DNA of 64,000 bases, taken from contig RSEH01000012.1 in NCBI GenBank assembly GCA_006503475.1, positions 185,144 through 249,143 of the forward strand. The letters run 5' to 3'. The notes beneath the pieces were generated by a model. The model saw nothing but the letters and a program-made list of their open reading frames with translations. It was not told the origin of the DNA and searched no databases. Shown here piece after piece: positions 15,153 to 63,621 of the stretch. The first letter of the stretch is position 1. Each line of letters opens with the position of its first letter. This DNA comes from Stentor roeselii. Taxonomy: Eukaryota > Ciliophora > Heterotrichea > Heterotrichida > Stentoridae. Made by a program: the position numbers and the translations under genes.

Positions 15153-15704
15153 TTATTTAAGACTATTATAAACAGTAATTAATTTTCCCACAGGTTCCAA
15201 AACTTTAACCCTATTTCTCTTTTCCTTCCGATTTGCACCTTCCATGAGTCTGCTCTTGTTTTTATGGTCCAGGAATTTTCTCATAACTTTTCTATCAACA
15301 CTACTTGGCAAATAAACAGAAAGTAAAGACTTGTTATTTATTCCTGGAAATTTTTCTTTTTCTTTAAAACTTTTCAAAGGTTGATCGAAAAACTCTTTAT
15401 ATCTTGGATGAACTTTCGCAATTTCATAAGCTGAGACGACATCAGGTAAAGAATGTTGAATTTTTCTTTTTAACCTTGAAAGGTTTTTAAGTGGCAGTAG
15501 TTGTTTTAATTCGTTTTTTCTTTTAGTGTTCATCGGACTGTTCATTGAAGGAATTGGATTCAGAGATGACTGGGAGTTAGACTCCCATCCTGTAAACTCA
15601 GCAGCCAGGTCCTGCCAATGCTCTTTAAGAGGTGACTTACTTACAAAAGCGAATTTTTCCACTTCTCCTGAAAGAGTTGTCACATAGTGAAGGTCCGTAT
15701 TCAT
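15153..15704 (-). CDS. Hypothetical basic protein
   Basis: A 183-residue basic protein without a recognised domain. It starts 36 bases from the divergent kinesin ATG, so both genes share a very short promoter. Near its 3' end GTCTTAAATAATTAG could act as a 15-nt intron, but the extended frame would run into the 56-bp tandem repeat, so I keep the stop at 15153. Confidence 0.6.
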   Translation of the reverse strand: MNTDLHYVTTLSGEVEKFAFVSKSPLKEHWQDLAAEFTGWESNSQSSLNPIPSMNSPMNTKRKNELKQLLPLKNLSRLKRKIQHSLPDVVSAYEIAKVHPRYKEFFDQPLKSFKEKEKFPGINNKSLLSVYLPSSVDRKVMRKFLDHKNKSRLMEGANRKEKRNRVKVLEPVGKLITVYNSLK

Positions 15705-15740
15705 GAAAATTATAAATTTTTGTTTATATTGAAGATTTCA

Positions 15741-18389
15741 ATGAACTCCAAATTTAAAAGAAGCATGACCAAGTTACCATCAAAGCCAAAAGACGACTTT
15801 TTCTCAAAAGAAGACTCAACAACCCGCAACACCAACATAAAAGTAATCGCGAGGTTCCGCCCAATGATCCAAATAGAAAAATCAGAAAATGAAAACCCTG
15901 ATTTTAAATACATCTTTCCAAACGACTGCACAGTTCTAGTCCCATCATCAGGAGACCCTTACACTTGTGACAAGGTATTTCCGCCATCATCAAGTCAGTT
16001 AGAAGTCTTCGAAGCCACCGGGTCTCCAACAGTAGCAAACGTCTTAGAAGGCTACAACGGGACTATCTTCGCATATGGGCAGACCGGTTCTGGAAAGACC
16101 TTCACAATGATGAGCAACATTCTTGACGAAGAAACTCGAGGAATAATCCCAAGAAGTATATCAAAAATCTTCGATTCCGCTTCTTCTAACCCAAAAATCG
16201 AGTTTTCATTAAAATGTTCCATGTTAGAGATCTACAAAGAAACTTTAAGAGATTTACTTGGAACATCGGAAACTTTGAAAATCAAGGAAAGTCTTAATAA
16301 AGGAGTTTATGTGGAAGGGTTAAGTGAAGTCTTTGTTGCGAGTGAAGAAGAAGTGATGCATGTTTTGGAAAGTGGGGAAAAGTCACGATCGGTCGCGAGT
16401 ACGAAGATGAATCAGGTGAGTTCTCGGAGTCATCAACTTTTTATGATTGAAGTTAGGCAGAAGTTTCAAAATGATAATGAAAAAAAAGGAGTGCTTAATT
16501 TAATTGATTTGGCTGGAAGCGAAAATGTTAAAGACTCTGGAGTCACTGGAATGAATTTAGAAGAAGCGAAAAAAATTAACTTGAGCTTGTCTGCACTTGG
16601 AAATGTGATTCATGCTTTGACTAACTTTTCGGATCATGTTCCTTATCGAGACTCGAAGTTGACTAGGTTGTTGCAGGAGTCTCTTGGAGGGAATTTTAAA
16701 ACTTTACTTATTATTACTTGTTCTCCTGCCCAAAGAAACTTCGACGAAACCCTAAAAACCTTAAAATTCGCCCAAAGAGCAAAAAAGATAAAAACTCACG
16801 CCACAATAAACTTCAAAACCAACGCAGAAAGCTACTTAAAAATCATCGAAAGTCTGAAGTGATATTTATACAGAAAGCAACTCTCAGAAGCTCAACAAAT
16901 AATAAAAGGTTACCAAAGCCTAGAAAGTTCTCCACTAATGTTATCCCCAATATTAAAAACCACAGAACTCAGCAAGTCCCAAAACCAACTCCGTTTATTT
17001 TCAATTGAAGACAACAGCTTAACATCCGAAGACATCCTCAACAAAACTTCAAAACTCTGCAAAATCGAATCAAATCCAAAAGAACTTGAAGAATTAAAAC
17101 AAAGCCTTCAAGACCTCAAAGAAGACAAAAAAGAACTTGAATGGAAAGTCAAGAGTCTTAAAGAAAAACTTCTGAAATGTGAAGAAAAGTCTCATGAATA
17201 TTACGAAATGTATCATAAACTCATTTTAGAGCTCAAGGCAAATGATGACTATAAAAAAAAACTAGAGAAACAAAACTTGCACTTGAAAAATCAGTTGGAA
17301 GTCCTGACTCGACATTTGGTAAAACTGGAAAAAAGAGTATTTTTAAAAGATGACAATCAAGACTTCTGTGAATTTGAAATAAGTGGCTTGAAGCAGAATT
17401 TCATTGTAAACTTTAAAAAGATCAACACTGAAGATAGTGATGATGACATCTCACAAGAATCCAGTGAAAAATTCATTAATCTTCCAATAAACCTTAAAAT
17501 CTTGAAAGAAACTGCAGAGTACTCCTCTTCCCTTCGTTCAAAACTAACAGTTTCAAGTGAAATCGACCAAAACCACCTGATTTTCCATTTAAAAAATCAG
17601 GTCTTGCAGTAAGATCAACTTAGAGCAGAAGTCCTGAACTCAGATTTAATCCTTTCAATAGGATCCTTATCAAGTCGCTACAACCTTTTAAAAGAAAAGT
17701 TAAAATTCAAGTCATTTATCTCAAAACTCAAGTCAGACCGGATCGGTCTTCTCGAAGATATTTTAAACCATCTTCACCATTCCTACTCAAAAATCATGAA
17801 ACATTACAAAACTCTTGAAAAATCATCAAAAAAAATCCCTGAACTAGGAAACATTGTCCGCCCTGTCGCAAGAAGAAACACTTTCATAACTAGACAAGTC
17901 CCTGAAGCCGAAGGACTAAGAGAATCTGAAGCCCAAGCCCAGATTTACATTCATCGAAACATGAATCAAGAACTTCGACTAGGAATAGAAATAGCGAGAT
18001 CAGAACTACTGAATTATAAAGAAAATGCAGGGAAGTTAACTGAACAACTCCATGTTAATCATGAAAATCATAGAAAAAAGGTAAATGTTATTCTTCTTGA
18101 GTATAAAAATCAGTGTCAGGCAGAATTGAAAAGAAAACAAGAGGAAGTTAATAAGCTTCATGAAGTTGTTGCACATTGGATGCATCAGTTTATGGAACTT
18201 CAGGAAAGTACTGGAATACCTTCTTCCAGGGGCTCGACTCATAGAAGAACTCTTAGTAGACAGTATGTGGAAATGATTAAAAACCTTTGTGATAAAACTA
18301 AATCAGCTACTCAGGGAAAAATTCAACCTATTTTAAAGGGAATTTTTAGAGCTCATGGAGATCAAAGCCCTCCTGTTTATGATGAGTAG
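15741..18389 (+). CDS. Kinesin-1-like motor protein, two 15-nt introns
   Basis: Three open segments (to 16858, 16874-17608 and 17624 to 18389) join on removing GTGATATTTATACAG and GTAAGATCAACTTAG, giving 872 residues. The N-terminal motor (~35-365) has the P-loop 'YGQTGSGKTFTM', switch I 'NQVSSRSHQLF', switch II 'LIDLAGSE', and 'HVPYRDSKLTRLLQESLGG'. 'KGVYVEGLSEVFV' and 'FAQRAKKIKTHATIN' resemble kinesin-1 heavy chain. A long coiled-coil stalk follows. Such motors walk to microtubule plus ends carrying cargo. I use ATG 15741; an in-frame ATG at 15687 would overlap the divergent gene. Confidence 0.92.
16859..16873 (+). other. 15-nt spliceosomal intron
   Basis: GTGATATTTATACAG. It begins GTG rather than GTA and holds an in-frame TGA. 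It lies at the end of the kinesin motor domain. Confidence 0.85.
17609..17623 (+). other. 15-nt spliceosomal intron
   Basis: GTAAGATCAACTTAG. It contains the TAA that ends the second kinesin segment. Confidence 0.88.
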
Positions 18390-46823: not shown

Positions 46824-49800
46824 CTAATTAAGCGACTCTTCATTACTAGCTTCACTAGCTTTCGGTAAATCCAATTGAAAATTCTTCATCTTCTGAATGC
46901 CCTTCCTATTCGAGTTAACAAACTGGTTGCTGGTGGCTCTCTTAGGATATGAAATCCTTCCAAGAGGACTGTCCTGAACAGAAACACTGGGCATCAGTTC
47001 AAGTCGAACAGCATCCAAATCAATACTTTTCTCAACCTTTTGCCTGACCTCCACACTCTGGATATCAACATCACTGTTCACAACATTAAAATTCAAATCA
47101 AGCTTCTGCAGCTTCTTGACTCGAGGGAACAAAGTCACTTCTTCATCGAAATTTTCTTCAAAAAGTTGCTGCAACTTTAAAAAATATGCCTATTTAAAAA
47201 TCACCAAACTCGCTGTCAGTTCCGCGTTTGTGAAGTTGACGTCTACTATGCTGTCGGTTTTCCAGGAAAAATATTTTAAGTCTTCGGATTGTGCTGGGGA
47301 CGTGATGTTGACTGTGATGTTTTCGACACTTCCTAGGCTTTTCTCCTTTAGGATAAATGTTTCGATTTGGGCGTCGTTCGCTTCAACAGTAACCAAATCA
47401 CAATAAACAGTAGCAGGTTCTTCATAGACCTGATGAATGACTTCTTTTTCATTGAAAACTAGCGCATTTTCATCTATTTCACTTGGCTTCCGAATTTCCG
47501 CATCGCCTGTCTTAACCCTAACCTTCGCTGAATTGAATGAAATTTTGGCATGTTCTTCACTTTTCGAGTGACGAGGAATAATGACCTCTCCAAGGTTCAA
47601 AGAAATGGCGAGAGTGAAGTTATCTCTATCAGGTTCCAACTTTTTCGCTTTAACTGACTTCAAATCCTTGATTGCCAAGAGCAACTCTTCAAAAACCTTG
47701 TTAATAACAACTGCTCTGACCTTATGCAAAGCTTTGATGCTGATTTTTTTTGAATTTAATTCAATATGCACTGAAATGCTGAAGTCTTTAGAGTCTACCA
47801 TGTTTTTAAACAAAGAGTTGTTAGGAACCACTTCAAGACTCTTGCAAACCAGAGCAAGTTCTTGACTATTAGTGTAAATATTGCTCAAGTCATTGTAAAA
47901 CTCTTTCACATTGCTGAAATTGTGAGACTCTAACTCACCTTTCGGAAGATTATGCAACAAAGTAATGAAATGCATCTTTAAAGTCAATATCAAGTACCCC
48001 CGGCATTCAAGAAGTGAGTAAAAATCTGTAAAAATCAAACAAATTCTTGTTTCTTTTGACTTTTGGTGAAGTTTACTAAGGTCTATGATGAAACCTGTTT
48101 TAGCTTCAGCTGGTTTAATGTCGATTTTAGGAACAGTTAAAACAGCGGTTAAGACTTTTTTCAATGATTCGATTTGAAGATAGACTGCGAGTTTTGGAAT
48201 GTTTATATGCCAGACCTGTGACTTGTCAAGTCGCACTTCAATTGAATTCCCTCTGCTGACCATCAGGGTGTTCTTGTAAAGTTCTCCAGGAATAGCGAGA
48301 AGAAGAGTTTCTTCAGAAAAGACCTGAACAGACTGGACTTTTATTTCAAGTTTTTCAATTGAATTGGTGGAACTGCAGGTGAAGACCTTGTTTAAGACTT
48401 TTCCTTTCGAATGCCGCATGTCGCTTTGCATTAATTCAAAGTTGCGAATGAAGACTTGCAGGACATTTTCCAGTTCTAAAGTGATTGAACTGATATGAAC
48501 AGAAACAGAGTACGTCAAGTCAGCTTCTGTGTCTTTTCCCTTGAATAACAGCTGGTTAAAAGGCGGGTTAATGCAAACAGGCAAGACATTCACATCCACA
48601 TCATGAGCCATTCCCTCTACTTCAAGTCCGCCCATCAAACAACTGACCTTAACACAAGAAACCCTCAATAAAAGTGACTCACTCAGACATTGAACACGAA
48701 AAACTTTAAAGTCTTTTTTTTCAATCAAACAATTTGCGAGTTTTACCCACTTTGCAAGTTTTAAAAGGCCTTCAATAAGTAGGCATCGTTTTTTACTTTT
48801 CAGGTTCAAAGTGACAAAAATCGACTTTATCAGAACTTCAGTCCTGGCTTCATGTTCGTGAATTTCCATGTCCGGCACTTTTATCTTCGCGACATTTGAG
48901 ACACTTCTTCGGAAGTCAAAGCAATTTTCATTAGACTTTTCACTTGTTTTGTAGAAGTTTCGAGTCATGCTGGCCAGTTGGTACGCGAAAGAAGAGGAAG
49001 AAGACAAGTAATACTTTCGTGTAAGTGGGAAGAACTGGCAGTGACTTGAAAGAATGACTGGTTGCATCTTAGAACCTCCAGGTTTTAAGAGGACTGAATC
49101 GCGACTAGGGCTATTTCCTGTGATTTTCGAGGAAATGACTGAAAGTTTGAAGATCATTGGAGTTTCTTCGACCTTCACAAAAAGATGCTTGCAGGCCAAG
49201 TCGAAGTACGTGTCTTTTGCATCTTTTAAAGTAACAACTAAACCTTCTGGATGACCCTCGTCCATGCTTCCAACAGCGAAATTGATGACAAAAAGCAGTT
49301 TCACGTTGTGGATCACGCAATGTTTGCAGTTTTTTCCTGGAAATTCATGACTTTTCAAATTTTCATCTAGCAGGTTTTTTTTAACTCTTTTAAAAAAGTC
49401 TTCTTTTGTGTTTCTCTTGTTATTCTTTGGTTTTTTTCCTTGATGGCGGCAGTTCTCAATCGCCTGTCGAAGTTCAATCAAGTCTTCTGATTCGCTTTTT
49501 CGAAAGTCGCTTGAAACGAGATGGTTGAAACTCGCAAGCTCGTTTTCAGAGGTTTGAGTTGCAAGACTATTCAAAATATGCACTAAAGACATTATGCTTC
49601 GGTCAAGAGTTGACCTGACTGTTTGGACGTGAATGTCAAGAAGCAGTGAGGGTTGATAAGGGTGGTTTGAGAAAGGGTTCAAGTTTCCTAATAACTGAAA
49701 ATTTTCAATGATTAGGATTTTTGTCTCATTTAGATTGATTTTTGAATCATTTGAAAGGATTTTTGATTCATTTGAAGGAATTTTTGAATCAGTTGAAAGA

Positions 49801-52790
49801 ATTTTTGAATCAGTTGAAAGGATTTTTGAATCACTTGAAAGATTTTTTGAATCACTTGAAAGATTTTTTGAATTACTTGAAAGGATGACTGATCCTATTG
49901 AGGATTTAAAGGTTACGTAATTTTGAGTCATTTGAGGGTCGAATGCTACTTCTGAATCGCGAAAACTACCTGATATGTCTTTGCGGAGGTGCAAGTCGTT
50001 TATGAGAAGAGAAAAAGTTGCTGGGAATTCTAAGTTTTCTTGTGATTTTTGGGATGATAGTGAAAGGTTCAGTGATTTTAAATTTAGGTTGAAATCGAAC
50101 TCAGGAAAGTTTATCAGCTTGTCTTCTGTTAGTGCTTTGAGAATTCTTTCGCTTCTTTCTGTGTTTTTCATTAGTTGCTTTATCATAAGAAGTCTCTTTG
50201 GAAGATCTTCTAGGGTTTCAATGAAGTTTTTCTTGAAGATTGACTTGGGCTGCATATTTCCTTTATCAGCAGTAAGAAAAAGCTTTAAGCAGCTAAGTCC
50301 ATCAGTAGTAAGTTTAACAGGAAAGTTCTGAACCTGTCCATCAAAAACAACGACAACTTTTTCCTTTTTCTTATTCTTTTTCTTCCCATATTTTTCCTCC
50401 TCTTTCTCTAAATCTTCAAACTCTTCCTCATTCTTTTCTCGAGCAATATTTATCGAGCATTCAATAGAATTCTGTTGTAAAATCTTAGGAAAAATACCAG
50501 AAATGATATATCTTAAAGCAACCTGCAAGAAAAAAGGAAAGAATTTCATAATATTTTCCTGAATCTGATTAGCAATTGTTTCAATAGTTTTAAGACTTAA
50601 GTTATTTCCTTTAAAACTCTGCTTGCAATCATGAATATTGTTATAAGGATTCTGCTCATTGAATAAAAACGCTTCTTTGAAAGTTTGTTCACTTTTATAA
50701 CAAAATCCACACAAACACAGATCTCTTTCTGAGTTAAACTCTTTAAAGTGCAGCCAAAACTCAAATTCAGCTAAACAGTTTTTATCTTTCATGAAATGAC
50801 GAAGTGCCCAGTGAGCCTTGTTTTCTTCTTCTAAACGGAAGATATAGTCGAACCAGCCTGGGAAGTTTAAAAAGTCTTGAAAAGAGCTGATTTTACTTGA
50901 AGTTTTACGGTTCAGCGATGGGCAAGAACAAAGTAAAGGGTCGAAAGCAATGACATTATCAATTGTGACATTACAATCAATCAGGTCAAAATTCAAATTT
51001 CCTGAGACTTTCATAGTAACATTATCAATCAGTAAGAAAATAATGGTGATTTCCTTGACGATGTTCTCTTCATAAGCTTCACCTCCTCTCGTCTTAAAAC
51101 ATAAAGACCCAATTTTAAATACCTCGTCACCGGACTCAATTATCACATCTTTCATTTTCCTATTGGGCAGAAGTGAGTATTCATTAGGAAGTCGAATTAT
51201 TTTGCGTTCAGGGTTGATCTGCACTCTATCAGGTACTTCATGCATCTTCGAAGTTCTAAACTTACTGTTCCTGCTGGACTTGAGTTCATTTTCCCGGCAC
51301 AAAGGAGCACATCTGACACATTTGCAGTCTTGAGTATCAAGTAACGTGATCGGTTGTTGTTGGAAAGCTTTCAACAAGTTAATCGAAAAAACAACTCTAT
51401 TGATTTCAAAAATGACTGAAAATTTGTTCTTGGGTTTTGAATTTTCAACTTCTTCACTAGTTTCATCAGGTATCTCAACATTATCTTGAGGGTTCGTTTT
51501 GAATTCATTGATGCAGTCTTTCACGTATTCCATAGTTTTTGTCTTTTGTTTCGCTTCATGTTCTTCCATTTTTTTCTTAACGTCCTCACTTTTTTTTGCC
51601 TTCTTTTCTTTGCTGATTTTATTGATGATCTGTTTCAAGGCGTCTTCCCTGAACTTAACGATTTCTTCAAACATGAGACTTTCTTCAATGCTTTTCATTT
51701 CAGCCTCTTCCGTAGGTCCAAGTTTGATTAAAACAGGAGCTTTGATGATGGTTTGAACCCTTTTGTAAAGCTCGATATATTTCAACTTCGTGCTGTGCAT
51801 TCTAAGGACTTTGTTGATGTTAAAACGCAAGTCATACTTGAAAGATTTTACCAAAAATTTCCACCATTCGCCTGGTGAAGACTTTGCAGAATTTCGAGGT
51901 TTTAAAAAAGAGTACCTGTTGGCTTTGGAAGAGTTTTCCAAGAAATTCAGAAAACCTTCAAGAAACATTCTTTGGTACTCGTTGATAGCAAATTGCAGGT
52001 CAGTAGTCATTTTAGGTTCTAGTCTGTAATGACAGGTCCCATCTACCTCGTTCAAGACCTTAAAATCCGCAGTAAAAGAGCAAGGTCTTAAAAAGTAGCT
52101 TCTTTCGCTGATTTTCATCTCATCATAAATATTTCCAACAGTTGTTCCTTGCTCATAGTGCACCGGGTCGCATCTCAGGATGACTGAAGCATTATTCAGG
52201 GTGACTTTCGCTTTGATTTCACTTTTCTTGTCCAGTATGTCGAAGACTTTTTGATCTCTGAAGATGGCGAAATACTCGATTTTTACGATTCCCAGGCAAG
52301 GAAAGCCGAGAATTTGCAGGTTTTGACTGTCTTGGTAGATAAAAGTTAAATTTTTCAGTTCTACCTTCACACGGGTTAGAAGAGTTGGAAGCAGCCAGTC
52401 CGCAAGTTTTTTTCCGAAGGTCCCTGTGATCTTAAGGCTGTCTATCTTGTTTTTTTCCCATTTTAGCAGGCGGGCCTGCTTTTGCTCTTTCAGGTTGTCG
52501 CTGTTTAAGTTCTTCAGGCTTGAAGGGTTCAATGCCAGGTGAAGACCTTCGACTACCAGCTTTAGTTTTGGAGTGTTTGAGATTGACAGTCTTAATGATT
52601 TTATCTTTGAAGTGTTTTGAACCACTAAAGGAATCATTAGGCTGCTTAAAGCGGATTTCTTGATTCGCACGTTTGTTAGAGTTATTTTTAGTTTGTGCAA
52701 TGAGGTCTTTTCTTCGATCTCGCCGCCTTTGATGTAGGATTTCAGGTTTTCTTGGATCTTTTTGTAGATTAATTGGTAGACTTTGTACAT
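46824..52790 (-). CDS. Chorein/VPS13-like bridge lipid-transfer protein, one 15-nt intron
   Basis: A 1983-residue protein, the largest in the window. GTGATTTTTAAATAG (47204-47190) is removed near the 3' end and adds 121 residues. The first ~120 residues are a chorein-N domain ('IYKKIQENLKSYIKGGEIEEKTSLHKLKITLTNVRIKKSAL'). The rest is beta-rich with alternating hydrophobics, as expected for the lipid groove of VPS13, ATG2 and BLTP proteins that move bulk lipid between membranes. Insertions include a charged helix (~350-400), Cys clusters, and an eight-residue repeat (~975-1025). Length fits ATG2 or BLTP3 better than full VPS13. Confidence 0.82.
47190..47204 (-). other. 15-nt spliceosomal intron
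   Basis: GTGATTTTTAAATAG on the minus strand. It begins GTG, like the first kinesin intron. Confidence 0.88.
49715..49890 (-). repeat. 24-nt coding repeat in the chorein protein
   Basis: About seven tandem 24-nt units encode variants of the octapeptide Ser-Asp-Ser-Lys-Ile-Leu-Ser-Thr. The reading frame is preserved. Units differ at a few sites. Confidence 0.9.
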
Positions 52791-53669: not shown

Positions 53670-54890
53670 ATGAAGAATAAAAGTGTGGATTTGAACCGAA
53701 GAGATAAGCATTACAAATCACCTAAACAATCGCGAATCAAAACTTTCATCAACTATTCCGATAGTGTTTCGAATCAAAAAATAAATGAGAAAACAAAATG
53801 TTTAATCTGTAAGAGTCAAGACAAAAAATTATCACATATCTGCGAAATTCACAATTTCTGCAGTGATTGCATCAACACTGATAAATTCCCTCATAATGTT
53901 TACAAGAGTACTAACAACTGCGATAATTGTATAGCTTGCATTGAGAATTGTAGCGCTGAAGTAATCAAACAAGAGGCATCAATTTTACAATCTTCTATAA
54001 GTATTCCAAGTAACTTTAAACCAAACTTATTACCTAAATCTGAAAAAGATCTCAAATCAAGTATTCAAAGTGAGAGATCAATTCCAAAAGAATATGTTTT
54101 GCAACAAGGATTTTTTGCCAGGCTTCGTCGTTGTAAATTATGTAAACAGAAGAAAAATGAATATATCATGATTTGTAAGAAGCACAAACTGTGCCCTGAA
54201 TGCTCTCACCATCATCTGGAATCGAAAACACTACCTAAACGAAAAATAAAATGCTTAAACTGCTGTGAATATTTTAGAAACAGCATCGCTGATAAAAATC
54301 AATGTTATAAGAATGGAGAAAGGAATGATAAAGAAGAAGTTAAGACTGATTTGTACCAGAAAATTGATTATGCTAATGAACAGGAATATGAAGAATGGAA
54401 ACAATTAGGAATGCTGGCTGAGGAGAGTTTATCATCAAAAAAATCTTTAGATTCAAAAATCGAAGAAGGAAAAGGAATACCAGCGGAGGAGAGTTCGACA
54501 TTAAAAAAGTTTTCAGCTTTCACAAAACAAGAAGTGGAAAATCAAGCATTCATGTACCAGACAATTAACTCACTAGAACTTATTTGTGGAAAATGTAAAA
54601 GTAATAATGACAGAATGTTTGGATTTTTATGCAATCATAATGTGTGTTTGTCTTGTATTTCAGATAGTGGATTCAGAGAAATATTGGAGTATGAAAGAAG
54701 CAAAATGCATCTGAACTCTGAGAAATTCTCCTATCATTGTCCTCAATGCAATTCAACAATAGACATCCCAACAAGAATGATCTTCAACCAACTAACTATA
54801 AATCACCAATATCAACTTTACTCAATAACTGAAAACTACTTCGAAACCAAAATTAAGCCAAATCTAGCCTTTTATGATGGAGTAGACTAG
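53670..54890 (+). CDS. Triple RING-like finger protein, array member 1
   Basis: A 406-residue protein with three C3HC4-type modules. M1 is C44-C47-C58-H61-C64-C67-C84-C87; M2 is C155-C158-C169-H172-C175-C178-C195-C198; M3 is C306-C309-C321-H323-C326-C329-C357-C360. M3 has the array-wide 'CNHNxCxxCIS' and 'YHCPxC...IPTRMI', and the protein ends 'FYDGVD'. Linkers are Ser/Lys-rich and disordered. The Cys/His spacing fits RING fingers, so a ubiquitin-ligase role is plausible, but three diverged RINGs in one chain is not an architecture I know. The next paralogue starts 21 bases after the stop. Confidence 0.75.
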   Translation: MKNKSVDLNRRDKHYKSPKQSRIKTFINYSDSVSNQKINEKTKCLICKSQDKKLSHICEIHNFCSDCINTDKFPHNVYKSTNNCDNCIACIENCSAEVIKQEASILQSSISIPSNFKPNLLPKSEKDLKSSIQSERSIPKEYVLQQGFFARLRRCKLCKQKKNEYIMICKKHKLCPECSHHHLESKTLPKRKIKCLNCCEYFRNSIADKNQCYKNGERNDKEEVKTDLYQKIDYANEQEYEEWKQLGMLAEESLSSKKSLDSKIEEGKGIPAEESSTLKKFSAFTKQEVENQAFMYQTINSLELICGKCKSNNDRMFGFLCNHNVCLSCISDSGFREILEYERSKMHLNSEKFSYHCPQCNSTIDIPTRMIFNQLTINHQYQLYSITENYFETKIKPNLAFYDGVD

Positions 54891-54911
54891 TTAAACTTTT
54901 CATTAATAAAA

Positions 54912-56078
54912 ATGAACTCACAGAGCAACGTACTAGACTCTTTCCTAAAAAATCGCTCAAGTATGTATCAAGATGTTTCAGAGAGTTTATATTCTGAGTC
55001 TTTAGAGCCATCAGCAGCCACAACCGTCCAAACATATCGACAAAGTCTTCCAGTTTCCTTCCAACCCCAGACCCAAGGGTCAGGCCGCTGTTCTATCTGC
55101 AATCAACGCGAGAATCTTTTTTCATTTTCCTGTAAAAATCACAGTTTCTGTAAAAATTGTCTTCATTCGAATGATCTCATCAGAAACATGGAAAAAGTAG
55201 CGAAAAACTGTAAAATTTGCAGAAATTTGACTGAATCTTCAGCTGAAAACCAAAAAAATCCCCGATTTTCTCAGCCAGTAACAAAGAACATCCCTTCCCA
55301 ATCTTTTGATTTTAGTAAGATGAAAAAATCTGGAACCCTTTCGAAAGACTGCAAAAGACAGCTAAAGGAACCAGAACAAATAAAAAAAAAGTTTTCATTT
55401 AGCAAACTCGTTTTCTGGAGAGTTAAATGCTTGACTTGCGGGAAGAAGCCTAAAACGATGTTCAAGATCTGTCAGGACCACGCGATTTGCGAAAATTGCT
55501 TGAATTTTTTTTTAACTCATAAACGAACTCCGAATGAAAACATCGAATGCAAGACTTGCTCAAAATACTTTTATCAAAGTATTCAAGAACCTGACTGTGG
55601 AAGTCTTGAGGCACCTGAAATGAATGGTTTTCATTTGGATGTCAAAGAAAGTGCTCAGAGCTTGGAAAGTATTGAAGATGAAAAAGATGACTTTGCACTT
55701 AGATCTGATTATTTGGGATACTCGGTAATGCTTCCTGGATGTGAATCGAAAATCGAGGATTTTAATGAAATTTTTCCAATATGTGCAAAGTGTGAAGGGA
55801 AAAATAAGATTATCGGACTTTTTTGCAATCATAATATTTGTAATGAGTGCCTTGCTGACTCGGCTTTTCGAGAAATTTTAGAATTTGAGATGAGGAGGGA
55901 GCGAGTTGGAGGGTTTAATTATCATTGTCCTTTATGTGGAAGTTCGATTGATGTACCTACCAGAATGGTGTTTAAATATGTGGTAGATGGAAGACTTTTT
56001 AGATATTCGGTGAGTGAAGAGTACTTTTACACAGTTTTATGGCAAAAAGTAGCATTTTATGATGGGGTTAATAATTAG
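54912..56078 (+). CDS. Triple RING-like finger protein, array member 2
   Basis: A 388-residue paralogue with all three modules: M1 C60-C103 ('CSICNQRENLFSFSCKNHSFC'), M2 C173-C216 ('CLTCGKKPKTMFKICQDHAICENC'), M3 C291-C342 ('CAKCEGKNKIIGLFCNHNICNEC...YHCPLC'). It has the same 'DVPTRMVF' and final 'FYDGVNN'. The N-terminal 55 residues and linkers are not conserved with member 1. Codon third positions are less AT-biased here than in later members. Confidence 0.75.
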   Translation: MNSQSNVLDSFLKNRSSMYQDVSESLYSESLEPSAATTVQTYRQSLPVSFQPQTQGSGRCSICNQRENLFSFSCKNHSFCKNCLHSNDLIRNMEKVAKNCKICRNLTESSAENQKNPRFSQPVTKNIPSQSFDFSKMKKSGTLSKDCKRQLKEPEQIKKKFSFSKLVFWRVKCLTCGKKPKTMFKICQDHAICENCLNFFLTHKRTPNENIECKTCSKYFYQSIQEPDCGSLEAPEMNGFHLDVKESAQSLESIEDEKDDFALRSDYLGYSVMLPGCESKIEDFNEIFPICAKCEGKNKIIGLFCNHNICNECLADSAFREILEFEMRRERVGGFNYHCPLCGSSIDVPTRMVFKYVVDGRLFRYSVSEEYFYTVLWQKVAFYDGVNN

Positions 56079-56181
56079 GAAGATATCCCTATTCTTATTT
56101 ATATTAGTAAATTGGCTTCTTTATTAGGATATTAGAATTATCTACTTTAAATAGTAAACATGGGATAGTTTTGTCTATAAA

Positions 56182-57480
56182 ATGTCCAATATCTTTAAAA
56201 AAATAGGAGATGCATTTTCAAAGGTATGGTATACACTAATAGAAAAAAAGAATGATGCAATCAATAACTCAGATTATTCTGTATCATCTGAAATGAATCC
56301 AAAAAGTACTAATTCTTTTAAAAAATCAATTTCTGATCATACTTCGAAAAGTCAAACTAGTGTAAAGAGATCTGATGTTTCAAATGAATCTCACAGTAAT
56401 CGTATGTTTCGAAATAATGAAGAAAGTAAACTAGAGTGTTATAATTGTAAGACTAGTAAGGAATCACCTTTTCAAGTATGCAAATTACACTCTTATTGTC
56501 AAGAATGCATGAATAGCTCTTCAATTAAAAAAATTAATCAGGATTGCATAGATTGCATGAAAATCATTTATCCTTCTGAAAATATTTCCAAGCCTATGTC
56601 GGGAAGAATGTATCCGAAAGAATTGAAAGATGATCAAAAAGATGAAAATTTTGACATAAAAGTTCCGAACTCTAATCCAGTCTTTCACACTAAAATTAAA
56701 GAAGAAACAAAAAATCCTAAAGTTCATAATAACTCGATATCAGAAGAAAATTATTATATACTACCCTCTCTTTCAGAAAAAGAAAAAATTCAGAATAGGC
56801 CAAAATTAGAAATGAATGAATCACGCCCAAAAGAAAAAAGTAAAAATCCAGAATTATTTTGTAATACGAAAAACGAAATTAATAAGAGGCCAGAAGTTCA
56901 GAAAACTCAAGAATATATAAATTTCAACCAAAATTTGAAAAATTCTGAATTTTTATATCCTAATAATAATGATCTAATTAACAGATACCCTCGAAAACAG
57001 GAAAACTTTATCACTAAAACTTCTGAAACAAGAAATTCAAATTATTTTATCAATAAAAACACTCAAGAAATCAAAGTAAACCCTGTGACTCCTGTAAACA
57101 CTGGTATTGAAAAAAAAAGATTTGTAGAATCAAATATTAATTTATTTGATAGTTCTCAGTTCTCGTGCACAACTTGCTCTATGAATGGAAAAGTAATCGG
57201 AATGATCTGTAATCATAATATCTGTCTTCGGTGTATTTCAATATATGGATTCAATGAAATTTTAGATTTTGAACGAAAAACCCAATCAAGAACAGCAGAA
57301 AATGAGAGATTCTGCTATCATTGTCCCCTGAAAGAGTGCAATATGATCTTAAGCTTTCCCACTGTGATGATTTTAAATTATATAGCTAGTAGTGGCATAG
57401 CTAGAGATTATGGAGTCAGTGATGACTGCATTAGGTATATGTGGCAGAAAATCCCATTTTATGATGGTTTGACTTTTTAG
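56182..57480 (+). CDS. RING-like finger protein, array member 3 (M1 + M3)
   Basis: A 432-residue paralogue. M1 spans C86-C125 ('CYNCKTSKESPFQVCKLHSYCQEC') and M3 C329-C386. M2 is missing; a ~200-residue Asn/Lys-rich low-complexity linker stands in its place. In M3 the last pair is C-x4-C ('CPLKEC') instead of C-x2-C, and the following motif is 'SFPTVMI'. These features are shared with member 6 and mark a second subtype. The C-terminus is 'FYDGLTF'. Confidence 0.73.
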   Translation: MSNIFKKIGDAFSKVWYTLIEKKNDAINNSDYSVSSEMNPKSTNSFKKSISDHTSKSQTSVKRSDVSNESHSNRMFRNNEESKLECYNCKTSKESPFQVCKLHSYCQECMNSSSIKKINQDCIDCMKIIYPSENISKPMSGRMYPKELKDDQKDENFDIKVPNSNPVFHTKIKEETKNPKVHNNSISEENYYILPSLSEKEKIQNRPKLEMNESRPKEKSKNPELFCNTKNEINKRPEVQKTQEYINFNQNLKNSEFLYPNNNDLINRYPRKQENFITKTSETRNSNYFINKNTQEIKVNPVTPVNTGIEKKRFVESNINLFDSSQFSCTTCSMNGKVIGMICNHNICLRCISIYGFNEILDFERKTQSRTAENERFCYHCPLKECNMILSFPTVMILNYIASSGIARDYGVSDDCIRYMWQKIPFYDGLTF

Positions 57481-57635
57481 ATTAGGCTCTTAGTGAATAA
57501 AAATAATTACTAAATATTAAATACAGACTATGAGCTTTCTATCAAGTTTTTACAGTAGTTTTTATATCAGGTTTAAAGAGATGACTAATAGTAAGCATTT
57601 CATAGTTTATTATCAGAAATGACTTATCGAAATAA

Positions 57636-58760
57636 ATGAGTGGTAATTCTGATCAAAAGCATAACGAAGATAATCAATTTTACTATACCTTATCTGAGTC
57701 TCTTCCGAGTTATCAACCGAAAAAGTAAGTTACATGCAGTCAAGATTCTTGGTATTTCAATCAGACTCATCGAAATCCAGCAAAACCTCAAAATGAAACC
57801 AAGTGCGCACAAAATTCACTCAGAACAAAAGAAATCGACCAGAATATCAAGCTTCCATTCAATCCTGCTCAACAAGCAATTCAATACAAACCCCCAGAGC
57901 AGTTTACTTACTTCAGCCGCCCTCCAACTCACCCACATTTAAGTCAAGTCATCTCAGTAAAGAGACTCTTTGAAGAATCTCAGTTAAAAAGCAGCGGTGC
58001 AACAAAATCATTTCTAAACTCATATCGAAAGTGCATTTCATGCAGAGAAAAGATTGCTGAGTACTTATTTCTTTGTTATAATCATGTTCTTTGCAATACT
58101 TGCTTTGAGGGTTGTCAAGAAAATGCAAAATATTTGATAAGATGGTTGACTTGTTTTGAATGTAGAAAATTATTAGAAAATCTAGGATTTGAAGATGGAA
58201 AACCTTTTCACTTCTATGATCGAATTAAAGAATTCAACCAAAATCAAGATCATTTGAAAGGTAACTTGTATAAAGCCTGGGAAAGTAAAAATTTTAATAT
58301 CGAAGAAAATTCAGGAGGAAATTCTATTGAAAATTTGGTTGAGATTGATAAAAATCTTAGACCGGAATCAATTAATCTTTTGGATGAGAAAGGAAAAGAT
58401 ACTTATGATGGGATGAGTAGCCAATCAGAGAATTTTTCGTGTTTAGACCCTGTGTGTCAAATTTGCAACTTTAAAGCTGAAGTAGTGGGGTTTATTTGCA
58501 ATCATAACATCTGCGTTAGGTGCTTTTCGCTAGCTGGGATCAAACAAATTGAAGATTATGAAAAAAATTCGCAGGGTAGAGAAAACAGAATATTTTCTTA
58601 TCGTTGTCCTTTGTGTCAGTCACTTATTGATATACCTACACGAATGATTTTTAGATACTTAGAAAAGACTAAGTACTTTGCAGAACCGAATTTTGATAGA
58701 GGGTATTTTGAATCCTTTATCTTACCACGGCTAGCTTTTTATGATGGGATTAATCCTTAA
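57636..58760 (+). CDS. RING-like finger protein, array member 4 (M2 + M3), one 15-nt intron
   Basis: A 369-residue paralogue. ATG 57636 opens a frame ended by a TAA inside GTAAGTTACATGCAG (57725-57739); removing it gives an open frame to 58760. M2 is C128-C131-C142-H145-C148-C151-C168-C171 and M3 C269-C322 with 'YRCPLC...IPTRMI' and final 'FYDGINP'. M1 is absent. It is the only array member where I can show an intron. An annotation starting at the internal TTG at 58134 would cut M2 in half. Confidence 0.75.
57725..57739 (+). other. 15-nt spliceosomal intron
   Basis: GTAAGTTACATGCAG. It ends CAG, as two other introns in the window do. Confidence 0.82.
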
Positions 58761-59790
58761 AAAGTTAATAGGTTATTCAGATAGATTGATAGAAGTAATT
58801 TTAATATTCAATTTTGTTTGTGAGAAACTTGAAATAGAAGAAATTTATTATATAATTCACTTAAGTCAAGAATTTTTAAAATTTCAAATTATATCTTTAA
58901 TATCCAGCCCAAATAAAACTAAAATAAAGTCTCTCGATCAAGAAGAAACAACCCCCATCAAATATTATTTATCCTATTTCAAGTTATCTTTCAATGCGCA
59001 CCTAAACCTAAACAAAAATTATAAATTTCTTTAATATTTCAAAGATTTTTCATATGCTGCATTTAAAAGCCAAGAATTATAATTATTTATATCATAAGCT
59101 GAATATTTAAATAAATAAACCAGAATAAAGACTAAATGCAATCAAAATATTTGTTGTTTTTGATTAGAGAAACAATTATATCAATAATTAATATTAAAAC
59201 CACATAAAAAAATACAGATGAATCAGGAATTAAGAAAAGTATCACCTTTTTGCAAAAAAACTAAAATTTATGAGTAATAAGGATTAATTCATCAGATTTT
59301 AGAGGAATATTATTCAAATATTTCTTTAAGATTTGATTTTTATTCTAAGGTGCATTCACTGAAATTATTCCTCTCAATGATTTCAAGTGACTCCGAAAGG
59401 GTATAGTACTGGGCAGGAAAAATTGGATAAATAAAGTATCACTCAGTTGATTTCAGAGAAAACAGAAAGGGTATAGTAATTGACTGAAAAAATTGGATTG
59501 ATAAAAGACTCATCTAGGATGATTTCAGTTTAAAATACAAATTTGTTAATTTTACTATGAAGAAAATCTACTATTCGATCATCATCTAATATAGAGATTC
59601 CTTTAAATCAAAATATTTTAAAAAGCCGAAAGACAAAATTGATTTTTTTTAAATTCATTAATCAATATAAACAAACAATTACATATTTTTCAAGCTTGAC
59701 AATATAACTAAACTCTAAGCTCTATATCTCTTTGAAAAGATTAATCAAAAGTTGATTGAAATAACATTCGCTTATAATCCCTAATAAAAA
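58761..59790. other. Spacer within the array
   Basis: About 1 kb, very AT-rich. At ~59394-59440 and ~59465-59510 an imperfect direct repeat shares 'gaaagggtatagta' and 'aaaaattggat'. No paralogue remnant is visible. Confidence 0.5.
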
Positions 59791-61029
59791 ATGAATAATG
59801 ATCTTGAAAAAGGAAGAAGCATCTTCCCAGAAAACTTACCACAAAAGTCTCAAGACCATGAAAAAGCTTCTCTCACTCCTTATGATTCATCTTGGGATGA
59901 AACAACCAGCCAATGTCCGAATTCCGAGTTCAATTTTACATCTTCATCTCAAATCTCAAAAAAATGCTCGATCTGTTCTGATCATCAGATCCATTTATCA
60001 AATTTTTGTATTTCCCACAATTATTGTAAAAAATGCATAGACTCACCAAGTCTATTCACTATTTCAAAAACCTGCGAAAAATGTGCAAATTATCTTGAAG
60101 GATCAAAAATGACAATGTCAACTACATGCAGCTCTCAGAAAGTAAAACCAGAAATATTTGATACATCAAAAACTATTCAGAAAAATCATTATACAAGTAT
60201 TTCACCTGAAAATTTGCAATCAAGAACACTAAACAAAAAAAGTCTTGGTGTTTCAACAATCTGGGAAAATTTAACATCTCTCCTTCGAAGATGCATTATT
60301 TGTTCAATGAAAAAAAATGAATACCTGAAGATTTGTAGTAAACATGCTATTTGTGAGAATTGCTTTAAATTTGTTTATGATATAGAAAATTATTCAGATT
60401 TAGGTTGTCATGATTGTGAAGCCTTCCTTGCACAGAATTTACCAGAAGAATATTATGATAATCAAATCGAAAATAATCTAAAAATTAAGATAGAAGTTAA
60501 GAAATGTGAAAAAAGTCAATGTTTTACAGATATTCATCAGGAAAAGAATACTAATGATGAAGATTTACTAGTAAATCAACTTTTTGGTGAAGAAAAAATA
60601 ATTAACAATCAGTTAAGTGAATATCTAGGAATAACTGAATCACAAGAAATTTCAAAGGATAATAAATGTTCTCAAATTTCATGGATCAGTCCAGAATCTA
60701 TGTGCGAAAAATGTGAAGGTTTTGAGAAAGTTATTGGACTTTTATGCAATCATAATCTTTGCTTAAATTGCATCTCAGATAGTGCGATTCGTGAAATTGT
60801 AGAGTATGAGAAAAGTATTGAGATTAAAGAAGATGGAAATATTAAGAAATTCGAATATCATTGTCTAGTCTGCAGATTTGTTATTGACTTGCCAACAAGA
60901 ATGATCTTGAAATATATTGAAAAGAATGAACTTTTAGGATATTACAAATTAGATGAAGAGTACTTTCGTTCAAAATTATGGCCAAAATTAGTGATTTTTG
61001 ATGGGGTAGCATTTAAGGATAAGTTTTAA
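59791..61029 (+). CDS. Triple RING-like finger protein, array member 5
   Basis: A 412-residue paralogue with all three modules: M1 C59-C98, M2 C168-C209 and M3 C305-C361 ('CEKCEGFEKVIGLLCNHNLCLNC...YHCLVC'). It ends 'IFDGVAFKDKF', so the first position of the FYDG motif region reads 'IFDG' and the tail is longer. It belongs to the same subtype as members 1, 2 and 4 (C-x2-C, 'LPTRMI'). The DNA is clearly AT-richer than members 1 and 2. Confidence 0.75.
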   Translation: MNNDLEKGRSIFPENLPQKSQDHEKASLTPYDSSWDETTSQCPNSEFNFTSSSQISKKCSICSDHQIHLSNFCISHNYCKKCIDSPSLFTISKTCEKCANYLEGSKMTMSTTCSSQKVKPEIFDTSKTIQKNHYTSISPENLQSRTLNKKSLGVSTIWENLTSLLRRCIICSMKKNEYLKICSKHAICENCFKFVYDIENYSDLGCHDCEAFLAQNLPEEYYDNQIENNLKIKIEVKKCEKSQCFTDIHQEKNTNDEDLLVNQLFGEEKIINNQLSEYLGITESQEISKDNKCSQISWISPESMCEKCEGFEKVIGLLCNHNLCLNCISDSAIREIVEYEKSIEIKEDGNIKKFEYHCLVCRFVIDLPTRMILKYIEKNELLGYYKLDEEYFRSKLWPKLVIFDGVAFKDKF

Positions 61030-61098
61030 CTGGATTAGGATAGGTTTAATCCCCAAAAGTTTAAATAATCTTCATTTGGTTATTATTACAAGCTAAAA

Positions 61099-62283
61099 AT
61101 GTGGTGGTTCAGAATTTCGAAATCTCCCGATCGAAATCGCAGTCCACAGCACGGACCAACTCAAAACTCATCAGATTTTGGTATCTCTTCCCTCAAAGCA
61201 AACAGAAACAAATCAGCTGCAGTATCTGCTAGAATACCAACTTGCGAGAAAAAAACATATATAAAACCAAAAAATATAGATTCAAGGAAGAGTAAAAAGC
61301 CACCTCTAATCCCTAATAGGTACTTTCTAGACAGGCTACTCGAACAATCAAAAGAAGAAGAGAAAACCATTCGAGTTTTCAAAAATGATTTTGTCAAATC
61401 TTATAATGAAGAAAGTGTTCAGAGTGATGAAAAATTACAGAAAATTGTTTATTTCACTGAGGATCAGACCCTTGGTGAGAAAATTTACAGTTTTTTCAAT
61501 AAAAAATATACTTGCTTTGGGTGTAAGGAAAAATTCAATATTTTATTCATGATCTGCATTAATCATCAATATTGTAAAGATTGCGCAAATCAATTAATCG
61601 AATATAGACAGATGGAGATATCGTATTGTGATATTTGTAATGAAACTTTTTCATCAATTTTTAAATCGCTTAGAAATGATGGTAAAAGCACCGAAATATG
61701 GAAAGGCAATAATGAAAAATGTGATGAGATGAAAAATTCTTTGAGAAACTTGGAAATTTCTAAGGCTAATTCAAAGACAGAGAAATTTTGTGATGAAAAG
61801 CATGAATTTCATCCTATTTCTTCTAATTTTCCTCTCGAAAGAAATGAAATTGAATTAATTGAAGATAGTGTTCAGATTGAGGAAGAAACTTCAAGAAATT
61901 GTAGAAATATTTCAAGGAATTTTGAGTCTTTTGTTGATATAAATAGCATCGAAATTACTCAGTGCTATTTGTGCAAAATCAATAACAATGCTATTGGCTT
62001 ATTATGCAATCATAATTTATGTGTTGATTGCATTTCGAAGTATGGATTGTCTGAAATTTTAGCTTATGAGCATGAGTACCCAACAAAATCAGGGCGTAGA
62101 AGAGAGAAATTTAACTATCATTGCCCAATAGAGGGCTGCAAATCTATTGTTAGCTACCCGACTGCGATGATATTAAAAAATATTCTTACACTGGGCTTGG
62201 TTCATCAGTTCAATATTACAGAAGATTATATCACCAGGTATCTTTCTTCAAAAATACCGTTTTATGATGGCGTAGATTATTAG
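61099..62283 (+). CDS. RING-like finger protein, array member 6 (M2 + M3)
   Basis: A 394-residue paralogue. M2 is C139-C142-C153-H156-C159-C162-C177-C180; M3 is C289-C292-C303-H305-C308-C311-C342-C347 with the C-x4-C ending ('CPIEGC') and 'YPTAMI', like member 3. M1 is absent; the N-terminal 135 residues are basic and disordered. It ends 'FYDGVDY'. Confidence 0.74.
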   Translation: MWWFRISKSPDRNRSPQHGPTQNSSDFGISSLKANRNKSAAVSARIPTCEKKTYIKPKNIDSRKSKKPPLIPNRYFLDRLLEQSKEEEKTIRVFKNDFVKSYNEESVQSDEKLQKIVYFTEDQTLGEKIYSFFNKKYTCFGCKEKFNILFMICINHQYCKDCANQLIEYRQMEISYCDICNETFSSIFKSLRNDGKSTEIWKGNNEKCDEMKNSLRNLEISKANSKTEKFCDEKHEFHPISSNFPLERNEIELIEDSVQIEEETSRNCRNISRNFESFVDINSIEITQCYLCKINNNAIGLLCNHNLCVDCISKYGLSEILAYEHEYPTKSGRRREKFNYHCPIEGCKSIVSYPTAMILKNILTLGLVHQFNITEDYITRYLSSKIPFYDGVDY

Positions 62284-62397
62284 TTAAGTTATCGATTTTA
62301 ATATCTTGAATAATTTATCTATATATTATTCAGATCAAATAATAATGATGAAAAGAAACTCTTAGAAAAAATTATCAGAACCAAAAACCTGAAAATT

Positions 62398-62935
62398 AAA
62401 CAAGGAATTTTTCATAGGTATCGAAATGTAGTACTTTGTATGAAGAAAATTAAGAAATATACCTCTATTTGTCCAAAACACAAAGGGTCTATTGTATCGA
62501 AAATTTTTCCTGGCTTTGATTATAGAGGAAGAAATGTTTGGATTATTTTTTTATTATCTCTGGTAAGAGTAATGAGATGAAAAGAATGAAAGCATTAAGC
62601 TAGAAGAAATTCAATTATTTGAATATAGAATGTGTTTTAAATTAAAAAAAGAGATTAATGACGAAGTAAAAATTTTGGAAGGAAAGATCTCATGTTAATG
62701 ATGAGGACGCTTCTTCAATCGAGAATTCATCTTGAGGGATGCTTGTGATAGCTAGTGGTCAGGATTCTATGTATCAGATTTGTAAAACCTTGAGATCTGT
62801 AACACTTAGGAAAGTATTTGGACTTTTATGAAATCATAATTTATGTTTATCATATATTTTAGCAAGGGGGTTTAAATATTAGAATTTGAACAAAGAAAGG
62901 CATGCAATGATTCTAAGGAGAAATAAGTTTTAATA
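62398..62935 (+). pseudogene. Decayed array member 7
   Basis: A stretch at 62401-62520 still reads 'QGIFHRYRNVVLCMKKIKKYTSICPKHK', matching M2 of member 1 but with the first Cys and later Cys lost. 62770-62932 reads 'MYQICKTLRSVT...VFGLL' then TGA where Cys of CNHN is expected, then 'NHNLCLSYILARGF', then another stop. Several stops and lost ligands in both parts show it is broken. The 'MYQ' and M2 matches point to member 1 as nearest relative. Confidence 0.78.
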
Positions 62936-62967: not shown

Positions 62968-63621
62968 TTATGAATAATTAACTAAATCAAATGAAACCAG
63001 CGAGGCTAAGAGATTGCAGTAATCACCCCAAGCATAAAGTTTCATAAATGGATGCGCCCATCCTCCAAATGGAATGAAATCTTTAAATGATGGATCTTTA
63101 TTGTAATAAACGTAATACAAAGGGAGATCTGAGGCCCAAGTAAAATTCAATCCAACAATATTTTGCCAATCAGTGAGACTAGTTTTAATTCCTACTTTTT
63201 GTTTTAGGAATTTGAGTTGGTTAATCATCGATTTTATAAAATTTTGATTATAAGTTTTATTGGAAGTCCAGGCAGATGAATCAACCACAACCCAGACCAT
63301 TCTATATTCTTGTTCTCTAATTTTATTCACTAAATCGGCAGCTTGCCCGGCAGGATATCCATACGGTACTGTAGGGCGAAGAGACACATCAACATAGGGT
63401 ATGCCTGCAGATCTGGCATTAAAAATTCTATCGATTACATTGAGATCAGGACATCCTTTTTGATCATTAAAACCTTTGACGATTACATGGCTGATATTAT
63501 TTGAGTTGATACAAGGAAAGGAATCTAGGCATATTTGATCAATACAATTTTGCATATCGAGTCCTATAATTGCCAAAGTGGGGACAATAAAAAGGGTGAG
63601 AAACCTAGGCGAGTTTGACAT
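62968..63621 (-). CDS. Secreted GH25-like (lysozyme-fold) protein
   Basis: A 217-residue protein with a signal peptide (~1-19). The mature part starts 'GLDMQ' (Asp22) and follows the GH25 barrel order: 'SHVIVKGF', 'IFNARSAGIPYVDVSLRPT', 'YRMVWVVVDSSAW', 'KVGIKTSLTDWQNIVG', 'PLYYVYYNKDPSF', 'LYAWGDYC'. The canonical WxDxE active-site strand reads 'WVVVDS' (110-115), so the usual Asp and Glu seem altered. It may be inactive or use Asp114. GH25 lysozymes cleave bacterial peptidoglycan, for example during feeding. Confidence 0.72.
   Translation of the reverse strand: MSNSPRFLTLFIVPTLAIIGLDMQNCIDQICLDSFPCINSNNISHVIVKGFNDQKGCPDLNVIDRIFNARSAGIPYVDVSLRPTVPYGYPAGQAADLVNKIREQEYRMVWVVVDSSAWTSNKTYNQNFIKSMINQLKFLKQKVGIKTSLTDWQNIVGLNFTWASDLPLYYVYYNKDPSFKDFIPFGGWAHPFMKLYAWGDYCNLLASLVSFDLVNYS

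Follow-up and report, generated by a model that had tools for sequence, protein, structure and literature searches.

The final 64 kb of contig C50 of Stentor roeselii (RSEH01000012.1; genome of 44.4 Mb in 522 contigs), hereafter the window (64,000 nucleotides), carries at positions 53670-62283 of the plus strand six intact genes, read in the standard code, whose products contain several RING-like C3HC4 zinc modules. The locus is one tandem array of an apparently undescribed, large ciliate family within the RING superfamily. Most members share an architecture of one to three N-terminal RING-like modules (M1 and M2 in the window, R modules genome-wide) and long linkers, followed by a C-terminal module, M3, with its tail. 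That these proteins are ligases or adaptors of the ubiquitin pathway, combining one C-terminal RING that docks a ubiquitin-conjugating enzyme (E2) with non-catalytic RING modules, is a reading we hold to be evenly balanced between right and wrong.

Complete modules, with eight zinc ligands at RING spacing, number 3, 3, 2, 2, 3 and 2 in genes 1 to 6; against these 15, residue shuffles of the six proteins (n = 20,000) gave a mean of 0.00025 and a maximum of 1. An earlier note, made from the letters of the window, had described six same-strand multi-RING-like genes and a pseudogene. That layout is borne out, the pseudogene being short; its figure of up to three modules is correct as a maximum, but all three are found in only half of the genes, gene 3 having no M2 and genes 4 and 6 no M1. 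M3 is the best-conserved part of the proteins (20 of 109 columns invariant across the six copies). The CNHNxCxxC, PTxM and C-terminal DG motifs that the note had listed are invariant in all six M3 domains, as is Y-x-C, and every chain ends 1-6 residues past DG(V/L/I).

The RING-like nature read from cysteine spacing in the same note was upheld by profile comparison and, for M3, by structure modelling, which together support placement of both M3 and the M1/M2 modules in the RING superfamily. The best profile match of M3 was to RING1 of RBR proteins from the same genome (hhalign 91.8), against 80.3 and 7.5 for two canonical RING sets, 9.3 for RING2 and 4.5 for IBR; the margin by which RING1 is preferred over the canonical C3HC4 RING is modest. 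Against RING2 of the same genome, the R modules reached 2.9 and the window M3 domains alone 20.2. The AlphaFold model of M3 (predicted local distance difference test score 83.8) places RING domains at the top of the VIA-align rows with modest Z values, the highest being the RING of RNF25 (Z 5.4, 2.5 Å over 64 residues), and the tail is modelled as helical, ending in the aromatic-Asp-Gly motif. A Foldseek search with the full-length model yielded nothing at E ≤ 0.001; a GATA3 finger (E 0.24) headed its rows, many of the others being RINGs. No Pfam model, curated RING models included, reached its cut-off in any of the six window proteins. PF24921, compared with 29 M3 domains, gave seven matches at E ≤ 0.1 (best 3.3e-5), the first-listed one scoring 21 bits against a cut-off of 50. 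No description of such a family was found in the open-access literature, outside which most subscription papers and supplements fall, and the main text of a Stentor regeneration paper (PMC9371601) mentions no RING finger, RING domain, ubiquitin or zinc finger. As far as these searches go, they support the note's label of an unrecognised family.

A genome-wide count of loci, which the earlier note had proposed, was obtained by tblastn with single members, merging of loci and then a profile of the window M3 domains, so that all counts are lower bounds. The merged loci comprised 32 frames with the RING-half pattern, and the M3 profile retrieved at least 32 M3 domains, spread over 16 contigs and 30 open frames, with five tandem arrays among them. 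Besides the six genes on C50, these are arrays of four genes each on C352 and C517, three genes plus one frame with just an R module on C122, and two copies with two M3 domains each on C152, one of them split over frames. Family-wide, of the 32 M3 domains 25 retain CNHN, 29 all eight C3HC4 ligands (by eye) and 30 the tail motif, which is missing from a domain truncated where its contig stops (C259) and from a frame of 100 amino acids (C37). At least one R module lies N-terminal of M3 in 26 of the 30 frames; 45 R modules were found, 44 of them with the fourth C-x2-C pair, a spacing demanded by the search regular expression itself. Distant members on C92, C254 and C440 (E 1.8e-9, 1.7e-7 and 1.3e-5) carry cysteine pairs past an FDG/FEG motif. 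One member on C352 (14209-16311, minus strand) begins with MGLCCSS, a possible myristoyl/palmitoyl membrane anchor, and contains a run of near-identical NDLFRENPEEKYLKE repeats. On C152 (57600-57700), a GTAAATT-A10-CAG junction cuts a family member into two frames; it could be read as an intron of 20 nt, as an error in the homopolymer or as a sign that the gene is broken.

A midpoint-rooted tree of the M3 family, with low support on 16 of 29 inner branches and long branches for C37, C86 and C124, places the six array genes in one group (95/99), joined by the copy on C109 (99/93). Array labels require 6 changes on this tree versus 13.0 in shuffles. Single groups are seen only for C50 and, weakly, C352 (59/45), not for C122, C152 or C517. 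Terminal branches of 0.3-1.07 changes per column within the C50 group argue for an old array, which probably goes back to local duplication of one ancestral gene. The earlier view that the family is still expanding is unsupported for this array, in which pairwise BLAST stretches show 24-42% identity between copies; a more recent duplication is seen on C152. The latter pair is 72% identical over 254 codons, with 0.158 non-synonymous and 0.270 synonymous changes per site (dN and dS by the NG86 method; ratio ~0.58), which points to weak constraint, in a copy with an interrupted frame.

Zinc loop II was read in 31 M3 domains: 22 have C-x4-C, eight C-x2-C and one an x3 spacing. The family as a whole therefore departs from the C-x2-C of canonical RINGs, a spacing that genes 1, 2, 4 and 5 of the window do show, the loop being long in genes 3 and 6. 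According to passages of PMC5462532, canonical RINGs always have C-x2-C at loop II and RBR RING1 domains C-x2-4-C; the extension in HHARI RING1 wedges the ubiquitin-loaded E2 (E2~Ub) open, and some RBR ubiquitin ligases (E3) have no such extension. Excerpts of PMC5548887 agree on the clash. Within the S. roeselii genome, C-x4-C is present in 12 of 14 RBR RING1 domains (11 by regular expression, one by eye) and in none of 30 sampled canonical RINGs, a sample that favours short loops: for 25 of its members a pattern requiring C-x2-C preceded the reading by eye, and the whole sample came from the upper part of the Pfam RING lists. By Fisher's test M3 differs from the canonical RINGs at P 1e-9, a value too small owing to related copies, and not from RING1 (P 0.46). 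At the E2-contact positions of RINGs (taken from parts of PMC7010608), 15 of 31 M3 domains show a hydrophobic residue at C1+2, 25 a proline after C7 and 6 a cation after C8; the corresponding figures for 44 R modules are 19, 3 and 6.

If the proteins are ubiquitin ligases or ligase adaptors, M3 would dock the loaded E2 with a RING face like that of RBR RING1, and the N-terminal modules, which look like scaffold or substrate-binding RINGs because 41 of 44 are without the E2-contact proline, may bind substrates, partners or one another; tandem duplication would then diversify the substrate-binding N-terminal half. The ligase role suggested in the earlier note is a plausible hypothesis; the usual E2 contacts are wanting in most M1/M2 modules. 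That same loss of the C7 proline in 41 of 44 R modules would be expected of zinc scaffolds with no ubiquitin role, in which degenerate RINGs serve protein contacts, cortical or membrane ones for example, and M3 no longer binds E2. We consider this somewhat unlikely: M3 does lack the cation after C8 in 25 of 31 domains and the hydrophobic C1+2 residue in 16, and the MGLCCSS paralogue may be lipid-anchored, but the presence of the C7 proline in 25 of 31 M3 domains versus 3 of 44 R modules is hard to explain without a conserved E2 surface. Far less probable is a family of nucleic-acid-binding zinc proteins, with the CPxxxC-(I/V)SxPTxM half read as a C2H2-like finger. TFIIIA fingers do appear at E 0.033 in a PDB profile search, C2H2 fingers stand low in the Foldseek list and the GATA3 finger heads the full-length one; the matched stretch, however, has no C2H2-type histidine pair, the best VIA-align rows are RINGs, and the eight C3HC4 ligands persist in nearly all M3 domains.

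Loop length raises another reading, which we judge improbable, namely that M3 derives from an RBR protein and holds E2~Ub open through its extended zinc loop II, either trapping E2~Ub or making up one half of a split ligase to which a partner contributes the catalytic cysteine, genes 1, 2, 4 and 5 having shortened the loop towards the canonical RING. The distribution of C-x4-C among M3, RING1 and canonical domains and the HHARI wedge both speak for it, and no M3 locus coincides with any of the 103 IBR matches in the genome (E ≤ 0.001). The C50 clade also mixes loop lengths, and since its tree neighbour on C109 has C-x4-C, shortening within the array would be the simpler history. Against it stand the modest profile preference over canonical RINGs, the RNF25 RING rather than a RING1 as the best-Z structure row, the Pfam-drawn canonical sample with its bias to C-x2-C, and those RBR ligases that passages of PMC5462532 describe as without the extension. 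An IBR remnant was also sought in the C-terminal finger of the members on C86, C92, C124, C254 and C440 and is not recognisable (hhalign 0.2 against IBR). It is likewise improbable that the RING1 half became detached from RBR ligases and gave rise to some 30 multi-RING proteins which, with no catalytic cysteine of their own, clamp E2~ubiquitin open as an E2~Ub reservoir or split ligase, array copies with the shortened wedge perhaps having turned into ordinary RING ligases. Should M3 prove to be a RING1 standing apart from the RBR machinery, a role of loop II length in deciding between open and closed E2~Ub would be testable in nature, the window array presenting both lengths on otherwise similar M3 domains.

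The gene models are collected in Table 1. Successive genes are separated by 21, 103, 155, 1030 and 69 nt, gene 2 starting in the frame of gene 1, 21 nt past its stop. The sole internal stop of gene 4 falls within the predicted 15-nt intron, without which the frame is open; sections of PMC9505925 report the standard code and introns of 15-16 nt for Stentor. The window has 37 standard-code stop-to-stop frames of at least 200 codons, which close with TAG (17), TAA (16) or TGA (4). Two other codes were considered and rejected. Under the ciliate code of table 6, readthrough of TAA/TAG would merge genes 1 and 2 as well as genes 5 and 6; such fused proteins are not favoured because in most M3 frames of the family no more than about twelve residues stand between the DG motif and the stop. 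Reading UGA as Trp (Blepharisma type) merged two frames at 15510-17612, added 1-8 codons to four others and elsewhere in the window produced only new TGA-holding frames; TGA was read as a stop because so little was gained. The decayed seventh copy, detected by tblastn and blastn, aligns with M3 of gene 1 at E 1.5e-5 (43% over 56 amino acids, two stops in the alignment).

Table 1. Features of the multi-RING array (window positions; M3 ranges include the tail; aa, amino acids)
Feature	Positions	Strand	Length	M1	M2	M3	Zinc loop II of M3	C-terminus	Remarks
Gene 1	53670-54890	+	406 aa	53799-53930	54132-54266	54579-54887	CPQC	FYDGVD	
Gene 2	54912-56078	+	388 aa	55089-55220	55428-55559	55776-56075	CPLC	FYDGVNN	AlphaFold-modelled
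Gene 3	56182-57480	+	432 aa	56437-56556	absent	57160-57477	CPLKEC (extended)	FYDGLTF	
Gene 4	57636-58760	+	369 aa	absent	58032-58163	58449-58757	CPLC	FYDGINP	length after intron removal
Gene 4 intron	57725-57739	+	15 nt						GTAAGTTACATGCAG; predicted from sequence
Gene 5	59791-61029	+	412 aa	59965-60084	60292-60417	60697-61014	CLVC, then R	IFDGVAFKDKF	
Gene 6	61099-62283	+	394 aa	absent	61513-61638	61957-62280	CPIEGC (extended)	FYDGVDY	
Decayed seventh copy	62284-62935	+				62763-62930 (remnant)			in-frame stops

The 16 M3 contigs carry their loci close to contig ends: the distance relative to half-length averages 0.32, against 0.66 for 44 RING/RBR loci (Mann-Whitney P 1e-4), and differs from uniform placement (P 0.007). 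A subtelomeric location is not claimed: tandem arrays themselves break assemblies, and such breaks may account for the placement, telomeric ends having been shown for at most a minority of the M3 contigs. The genome holds 547 three-repeat matches to (CCCTAACA)n, the telomere-type repeat that excerpts of PMC9942806 give for Blepharisma; among the 100 matches listed, all are at contig starts or known contig ends, and C50 has none, the places listed reaching C70. Together with the standard stops and the 15-nt intron, these repeats fit a heterotrich ciliate.

The family adds a sizeable gene set to a genome already rich in RING and RBR matches (PF13920, 141; PF13639, at least 150, with 150 of 455 candidates scored; IBR, 103). 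Several of the IBR matches are clustered (on C338, C170, C161 and C280; e.g. C338 at 182.8-185.9 kb), which may point to an expansion of RBR ligases in this genome, many proteins counting twice among the 103. At three loci on C122 (46.7-51.2 kb) and C109 (48.4-49.7 kb), L096 to L098, RBR-like zinc modules precede a PARP-like stretch; in L096 Pfam places PARP over its cut-off (E 4.6e-7) and IBR just below, and the other two resemble it by eye. Two minus-strand frames flank the array, both with no Pfam match at E ≤ 0.01: one of 217 amino acids (62968-63621) that by eye resembles a GH25-type lysozyme, and one of 1866 (47190-52790) whose start, again by eye, resembles a VPS13/chorein N-terminus.

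Several known systems invite comparison. RNF25 (AO7), with its short loop, possesses an RWD domain, for which Pfam gives no match in the six proteins, a point of difference. TRIM- and TRAF-type RINGs match the first part of M3 weakly (TRIM39, E 0.016; TRIM5, 0.094; TRAF6, 0.49), but the window family has several RING-like modules per chain, and no B-box or TRAF domain exceeds the Pfam cut-off in the six proteins, an ANCHR-like B-box in gene 4 (E 0.039) being below it. From RBR proteins such as HHARI/ARIH1 and ARIH2 the family differs in that M3 is the last domain of the window proteins, with extra RING-like modules N-terminal of it, and in the short C-x2-C loop of four of the six window copies; Pfam gives no IBR match in the six proteins, and a RING2 with a catalytic cysteine was not found, the window chains finishing at most 7 residues past the DG that closes M3. 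M3 and RBR RING1 have in common the order of the C3HC4 ligands, a long helical run that links C6 to C7, the C-P-x3-C zinc loop II of most M3 copies, a linchpin cation that is usually absent and a helical segment past the domain, and RING1 gives the best profile match to M3, by a modest margin.

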